Positions 8,739-10,839 of a stretch of 32,794 nucleotides of DNA are shown piece by piece. A program made the translations under genes and the position numbers. How positions within the stretch are numbered: position 1 is the stretch's first letter; each line of letters begins with the position of its first letter. The DNA is from Thermoplasmata archaeon. Its GTDB lineage: Archaea; Thermoplasmatota; Thermoplasmata; Halarchaeoplasmatales; Halarchaeoplasmataceae. The stretch is from the NCBI GenBank assembly GCA_003551675.1, contig PUNG01000047.1:1-32794 (forward strand), read 5' to 3'. A model generated the notes under the pieces. That model had not been told where the DNA came from and made no database searches. It saw only the letters and a list, made by a program, of their open reading frames with translations.

Positions 8739-9743
8739 ATGAAACTCTCTGATTTCGATTATGAACTGGACAAAGAGCTGATCGCTCAAAGACCGAAAAG
8801 GCCTAGAGATGAATCTAAACTTTTTTTTCTAGGTAGTAACGAAAATAAACATCTGACCTTTAAAGAGATAGTCTCTTTGTTGAGAGAGGATGATGTGTTG
8901 ATCAAAAACAGGTCCAAGGTTATGCCTGCTAAACTCGAAGGAAAGAAAGACACCGGTGGCAGGATAGAAGTACTCTTTTACCGTCCTCTTAAAAAAGGTT
9001 GGGAATGTCTGATAACGGGTAGCAATATACGGGAAGGCAGATCCATCGTGATCGGAAACAAAGAATTTGAGGTATTGGAAGACGGAGATGAAGGTTTATT
9101 TGTTATAGATATAGACAACGACACTGCGGTAGATCTGATGGAAAAATTTGGTAAAATGCCTACACCACCCTACATCAAAAAAGAAATCGCTGATGATGAC
9201 GAGTACCAGACGGTTTACGCGGAGAAAAAAGGGTCCGTCGCCGCTCCCACGGCGGGTTTTCACTTCAGCGAAGAACTTCTCCAAAAGATCGAAAATAAGG
9301 GGGTGGAGATACATGATATAATACTCCATGTTGGTCCTGCAACTTTTTTACCGGTCAAAGTAGATGATATCGAAAAACATGAGATGGGAGAAGAGTTCTT
9401 TAAAGTCGGAGAAGAAGCGGCGGAAGCTATCAATAGAGCGAACCACGAGGGTAGAAGAGTGATATTGGTCGGAACCACCACGGTGAGAGCCGTGGAGAGC
9501 GCTTCAAAAAAAGGAAGGGTGGAGGCACAGAGCGGCTGGACCGATCTGTTCATACACCCGGGGTATGATTTCCAGTCGGGTATTGACCTATTACTAACTA
9601 ATTTCCATCTTCCCAAATCCACTTTAGTCATGTTGGTCAGTGCCTTTGCCGGTAAAGATAAGATATTATCTGCGTACCGAGAGGCCATGCGTAAAGGATA
9701 TAGATTTTACAGCTTTGGAGATGCGATGTTGATAGAGGGATGA
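8739..9743 (+). CDS. queA: QueA, tRNA preQ1 ribosyltransferase-isomerase
   Basis: S-adenosylmethionine:tRNA ribosyltransferase-isomerase, the bacterial enzyme that moves the ribosyl part of SAM onto preQ1 in tRNA to give epoxyqueuosine. The product of about 334 aa is full length. Characteristic segments are [14 protein letters not shown] at the N-terminus, [15 protein letters not shown] in the middle, [22 protein letters not shown] and [22 protein letters not shown] 8739 is chosen because a TATA-like ACTTTATT sits about 30 nt upstream; ATG 8727 would add four residues. It is followed by tgt with a single base between stop and start, so the two are certainly co-transcribed. QueA is normally absent from archaea, which make archaeosine instead. 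Confidence 0.95.
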
Positions 9744-9744
9744 T

Positions 9745-10839
9745 ATGTCAGGATTTGAGTTTGTATCGAGAGCAACTGAAGGACGAGCTAGAACTGGTAA
9801 GTTGACGGTAAATGGAAGGGAAGCGGAGACCCCCTTGTTCATGCCTGTAGCCACCAAGGCGGGTGTAAAAACTCTGACCTCGGAAGATCTACGTCAGATC
9901 GGTGTAGAAGCATTGATCACCAATGTATACCATCTTATCATGCGGCCGGGTATTCAGATCATAGAAGATGCGGGCGGCCTTCATGAGTTCATGAATTGGG
10001 ATGGTATAATCTTCACGGATAGTGGTGGCTTTCAGATGATAAGAGACGGTTTTAAATCCTCTCTAGATTCTGAAAAGGTAAAATTCAAGTCTGAGATAGA
10101 TGGGGCTGTCCATGAACTCACGCCAGAAAAGAATATCGAGATCCAGGAGAAGATGGATACAGACGTTGCGATGTGCTTGGATCACTGTCCTCCTTATCCG
10201 GCTGAAAGCGAAGAGCTAAAGATATCCTTGGAAAGGACGGCCCATTGGGCAAAAAGATGTAGAGAAGCAGGAAAAGTGGTTTTTGGGATATCGCAAGGTG
10301 GAACCGACCCGGGATCGAGAAAAAAAAGCTGCCGGCAGATAGCCGAAATCGGATTCGAGGGAAATGCTCTGGGTGGTCTGTCCATAGGAGAACCTAAAGA
10401 GGATATGTATGCTATGACTTCCATAGGTGGTGAGGTTTTCCCAGAAGACAAGCCAAGATATTTCATGGGGCTGGGTTCTCCTGAGGATATACTAGAAGCT
10501 ATAGAGAGAGGTATGGATATTTTTGACAGCGCTTATCCGACTAGAAATGCGAGGCATAGGAGTGTATTTACCAACGAGGGGACCATAAGGATAGATAAAA
10601 GCGCTTATAAGGATGATCACACACCCCTAGATCCCGATTGTGATTGTCCTACTTGTGATAATTATACAAGAGCTTACATACGGCACCTGTGTAAATCGAA
10701 CGAACTCGCTTGGATGAAATTAACGTCGGTACACAATTTATATTTTATAATAGAGCTGATGAAGAAGAGCAGAGAAGCGATCATGGATGGGGAATTCAAA
10801 GAGTTCAAAGATGGATTCATGCAAAAGTACAAAAGATAA
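9745..10839 (+). CDS. tgt: Tgt, bacterial-type tRNA-guanine transglycosylase
   Basis: It exchanges G34 of GUN-anticodon tRNAs for a 7-deazaguanine base. At 364 aa it has bacterial length and lacks the C-terminal domains of archaeal TgtA. DSGGFQ carries the general-base Asp. D261 in [15 protein letters not shown] is the expected nucleophile. The zinc site is C299, C301, C304 and H330. The pocket has Cys148 (LDHC) and Ile214 (GGLSIGE). Bacterial preQ1 enzymes have Cys/Val at these places, whereas eukaryotic queuine enzymes have Val/Gly, so preQ1 is the likely substrate. Directly coupled to queA. No preQ1 synthesis genes are in the window. Confidence 0.95.

Follow-up and report, generated by a model that had tools for sequence, protein, structure and literature searches.

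The window analysed here, a 32,794-nt stretch of contig PUNG01000047.1 from the Thermoplasmata archaeon assembly GCA_003551675.1, carries queA next to tgt, raising the question of whether this uncultured archaeon makes queuosine (Q) and how it came by the genes. To our knowledge, descriptions of queuosine, a tRNA wobble-base modification, still confine it to bacteria and eukaryotes, with archaeosine as the only product in archaea; the two share the precursor preQ0. Our analysis of the genome (158 contigs, 94% complete, 1.86% contamination) suggests, with a probability of about 0.88, that the products of queA and tgt catalyse two of the steps in a complete queuosine pathway that is encoded on the chromosome and predicted to work beside archaeosine synthesis.

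The queA gene (positions 8739–9743, + strand; 334 amino acids) encodes a tRNA preQ1(34) S-adenosylmethionine ribosyltransferase-isomerase (TIGR00113, PF02547), and tgt (9745–10839, + strand; 364 amino acids) a Q-type (G34) tRNA-guanine transglycosylase (TIGR00430) that lacks the archaeal C-terminal extension. The queA stop codon, TGA, occupies 9741–9743 and the tgt ATG lies at 9745, in agreement with an earlier sequence-only reading of two full-length genes one base apart. A longer open reading frame for queA begins at 8727, and the start at 8739 is backed by the canonical QueA N terminus, MKLSDFDY. A T-rich, TATA-like box, TTTATTA (8709–8715, + strand), lies 24 bases 5′ of this ATG, with similar boxes upstream of queA in both family-mates (G363 and G367); as a TATA-like candidate it fits a leaderless layout. 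The local codon style that the same reading described was confirmed: codon usage of the pair correlates with that of the neighbours at r = 0.889 and 0.847, within the range of the neighbouring genes themselves (0.72–0.91), whereas E. coli queA reaches 0.45, and neither E. coli nor Bacillus queA resembles the window neighbours. Around queA-tgt the contig encodes the proteasome-activating nucleotidase (PAN), the large and small subunits of RFC, TYW1, DUF763 and BtpA. Elsewhere in the window, one long open reading frame (13430–14419, − strand) had no family match in an NCBIfam search and two others (30376–31329, − strand; 31456–32703, + strand) had none in a Pfam search.

Both proteins were assigned with scores above curated family cut-offs. 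QueA matches TIGR00113 with 371.8 bits (cut-off 267.45) over residues 5–336 of 338 and PF02547 with 402.8 bits (cut-off 25), and its nearest solved structure is Thermotoga maritima QueA (1vky, E = 3.9e-95). Alignment showed that conserved QueA motifs including APTAG and TNFHLP[KR] are retained, with GFHF in place of GLHF. Tgt scores 421.9 bits against TIGR00430 (cut-off 306.75) and falls under the cut-off of the archaeosine enzyme TgtA (TIGR00432; 144.8 versus 350 bits); it is also far smaller than the 652-residue TgtA encoded in the same genome. When mapped by alignment to the solved Zymomonas Tgt (1ozm), D92, D146, C148, Q184, G211 and I214 correspond to D102, D156, C158, Q203, G230 and V233, the nucleophile D261 to D280, and the zinc ligands C299, C301, C304 and H330 to C318, C320, C323 and H349. 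Every residue named in the sequence-only reading was thus correctly placed. The zinc site and nucleophile do not distinguish the two types, because the genome's own TgtA has them too; the Q type is therefore indicated by the pocket residues (Cys148 and Ile214) and the absent C-terminal extension. These features support a Q-type enzyme, predicted to insert preQ1 at G34 of GUN tRNAs.

We then searched the genome for QueH, QueG, QueF, QueC, QueD, QueE, TgtA, ArcS and the substrate tRNAs. A QueH gene on contig C95 (1620–2123) matches PF02677 with 183 bits (cut-off 23.5) and T. maritima QueH (7lc5) with E = 4.9e-32, and adjoins genes that, from reading the sequence, are L44e- and eIF2-alpha-like; the profile search found no QueG above cut-off in this genome. 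QueF on C154 scores 145.5 bits for QueF-II (cut-off 86.9) and retains the C, the D and a stretch ELKSLKYY that aligns to ESKSLKLY. We rejected its identification as the archaeosine synthase QueF-Like, which is far more distant (5.7e-5) than B. subtilis QueF, the closest match (E = 1.9e-26). QueC on C64 (223 bits, cut-off 150.3) overlaps a QueD-like gene whose 80.9 bits lie below the NCBI cut-off of 89.25, and a QueE-like protein on C83 (E = 4.3e-34) scores 118.2 bits, below the NCBI cut-off of 206.1, as do archaeal QueE controls. TgtA on C127 (546.7 bits, cut-off 350) and ArcS on C36 (444.6 bits) are both above cut-off. Of the genes that the sequence-only reading had listed for a search, tgtA, arcS, queC, queF and queH were found above cut-off, and queD and queE are represented by hits below it. 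With QueF and QueH present alongside QueC, QueD, the QueE-like protein, TgtA and ArcS, full queuosine would be expected, and not epoxyqueuosine alone.

The expected substrates are encoded as well: tRNAs Asn-GTT, His-GTG, Asp-GTC and Tyr-GTA are present, all four with U33-G34-U35. Reading of the D-loops places G15 in tRNAs Asp, His and Tyr and A15 in tRNA Asn, so the first three could carry both 7-deazaguanine bases. The tRNA-Tyr(GTA) gene (L241; G000:C91:3959–4075) has a 42-base intron just 3′ of the anticodon, a position that raises, for this archaeon, the question of Q34 insertion before or after splicing.

In the pathway we propose, QueD, QueE and QueC would make preQ0, which TgtA and ArcS would use for archaeosine at G15. 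Part of the preQ0 would be reduced to preQ1 by QueF, and Tgt would exchange G34 for preQ1 in tRNAs Asn, Asp, His and Tyr. QueA would then add the epoxycyclopentane group from S-adenosylmethionine, giving epoxyqueuosine, which QueH would convert to queuosine. From the genes, key residues, co-occurrence and substrate tRNAs that we observed, we infer that these steps take place and that the cells contain Q34.

Co-occurrence across relatives is consistent with this pathway. Matches to PF02547 are found in 82 of 390 genomes of the phylum, which manual sorting divides into about 63 canonical QueA, 16 divergent QueA-like proteins and 3 unclear cases or fragments. Among 76 related genomes examined further, 40 have canonical QueA and 36 do not. 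Q-type Tgt is present in 39 of the 40 and QueH in 32, and QueF exceeds its cut-off in 27; each of the three is found in 0 of the 36 others. QueG exceeded its cut-off, among 21 genomes searched, in exactly the five genomes of family f14 that have QueA but no QueH, so that an epoxyqueuosine reductase is covered in 37/40 canonical-QueA genomes (QueH in 32, the unrelated QueG in 5). That two unrelated reductases fill this role would be difficult to account for if no epoxyqueuosine were made. The f14 genomes (G314, G328, G330, G371 and G387) have QueG instead of QueH and retain both QueA and Tgt. Together with QueF, QueH and the four substrate tRNAs, the pattern over 76 genomes strengthens the prediction of Q34 made in the sequence-only reading.

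A shorter or different route, in which Tgt would put preQ0 or preQ1 at G34 and little finished queuosine would be made, or in which another 7-deazaguanine would be the product, appears quite improbable. QueF is not above cut-off in 13 of the 40 canonical-QueA relatives (G113, G254, G257, G263, G294, G361, G383, G005, G017, G020, G029, G036 and G333), 12 of which also have Q-type Tgt, and the origin of preQ1 therefore differs among these genomes. Against such a route, however, this genome has both QueF and QueH, an epoxyqueuosine reductase accompanies nearly all canonical QueA while QueH is missing from the 36 genomes that lack canonical QueA, and QueA, for which we know of no role beyond preQ1-tRNA, keeps its invariant motifs. 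In favour of the shorter route, bacterial TGT is able to use preQ0 (PMC5485725) and queuosine in archaea is without a chemical record: in a 2020 review the only entries for Archaea are preQ0 and archaeosine, with Q, oQ and preQ1 absent (PMC7694415).

The origin of the pair was addressed by building the QueA and Tgt trees with archaeal homologues that the sequence-only reading had suggested. The first QueA tree was heavy in Bacillota on the bacterial side, and bacterial sequences from plasmid records, E. coli and the PDB were then added. QueA from the window groups with those of its two family-mates (100/99), with the root position unsettled, and a single archaeal clade was not rejected (p-AU = 0.545). 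For Tgt, a single TgtA outgroup gave a branch 7.17 long and was replaced by nine TgtA sequences. Window Tgt again falls with the two family-mates (100/100), and all 16 sampled bacterial Tgts group in a single clade (100/99), among them those of E. coli, Zymomonas, Thermotoga and Bacillus. In this rooted tree, which has a small bacterial sample and a distant outgroup, the bacterial clade lies inside the archaeal Q-type Tgts; monophyly of the archaeal sequences was not rejected (p-AU = 0.136). Within this limited bacterial sampling, neither window protein nests in a bacterial clade, and the nearest kin of both are the archaeal family-mates, in both of which queA and tgt are likewise adjacent.

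These results argue against a recent bacterial gift and suggest that queA and tgt form an old archaeal branch, separate from the sampled bacteria, with the ancient direction of transfer not fixed. Recent gain of queA-tgt by this lineage from a bacterium would account for the otherwise bacterial character of the QueA and Tgt families and for their patchy distribution in the phylum (the 82 of 390 genomes, about 63 of them canonical). We nevertheless consider it very improbable, given the kinship with two same-family genomes in both trees, the single bacterial Tgt clade, the compatibility of either protein with one archaeal clade and the local codon usage; QueF and QueH would also have had to be acquired, the latter beside archaeal translation genes. 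The probable transfer from bacteria proposed in the sequence-only reading is thus not borne out as a recent event, with archaeal QueA and Tgt standing apart from the sampled bacteria, codons local and the operon shared by family-mates. A further-reaching scenario, which we regard as unlikely, is that archaea have long made queuosine, by a pathway that predates the spread of the phylum and runs beside archaeosine, and that bacterial Tgt may descend from within archaeal Q-type Tgts. Finally, placement of bacterial genes into an archaeal bin, conceivable for a fragmented assembly of 158 contigs with 1.86% contamination, has a negligible probability and was rejected for practical purposes, in line with the sequence-only reading's appeal to archaeal flanks: PAN, RFC and TYW1 flank queA-tgt on both sides within a single contig, both same-family genomes have the operon, QueH lies on another contig beside archaeal-type translation genes, and codon usage matches.

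The 16 divergent QueA-like proteins present a different picture. In 16/16 archaeal genomes the gene adjoins a short-chain dehydrogenase (SDR) gene on the same strand, with no Tgt, QueH or QueF, and the same neighbours occur on two Rhizobium plasmids (archaeal and plasmid loci together: L066:4971–6625, L067:6891–8659, L068:5331–7055, L252–L264, L265:2186–3951 and L266:2216–4059). In an alignment of three archaeal and one Rhizobium sequence, TNFHLP[KR]ST is replaced by TG[MFV]H....SH and APTAG by PSA. The pair possibly belongs to an uncharacterised SAM-dependent pathway that does not act on preQ1-tRNA; a literature search on it found no paper. Separately, a Geobacillus conjugative plasmid (L267:1701–7029) carries a QueA homologue (34.5%) by genes for diaminopimelate decarboxylase, a PqqD-family protein and two thymidylate synthases, an unusual combination.

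The archaeon's genome combines gene sets for both queuosine and archaeosine with all substrate tRNAs, and the predicted presence of Q bears on the age of wobble modification. The system resembles the bacterial queuosine pathway in that queA precedes tgt, as it does in E. coli K-12, and in enzyme families, key residues and expected order of reactions, with QueH as in T. maritima; it differs in that its archaeal host also has archaeosine genes and its sequences branch deeply and apart from the sampled bacteria. It is not the first archaeal case, as one of this kind was already predicted in 2021, when Castelle et al. reported the same three enzymes, QueA, QueH and Tgt, in 34 archaeal genomes of DPANN and Methanosarcinales (PMC8204110). 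A literature search found no paper on the present archaeal group. In Methanoperedens (L120) and a Euryarchaeota MAG (L149), queA-tgt has queH nearby. Here, in another archaeal group, queH is on a separate contig, and QueF, TgtA, ArcS and the tRNA substrates in the same genome make this a well-supported and unusually complete gene set. With the archaeosine pathway of TgtA, ArcS and QueF-Like, the predicted queuosine pathway would share preQ0 and a transglycosylase superfamily, and TgtA and ArcS coexist with it here; it is set apart by a Tgt of the G34 type and by a QueF of the NADPH reductase type rather than QueF-Like.
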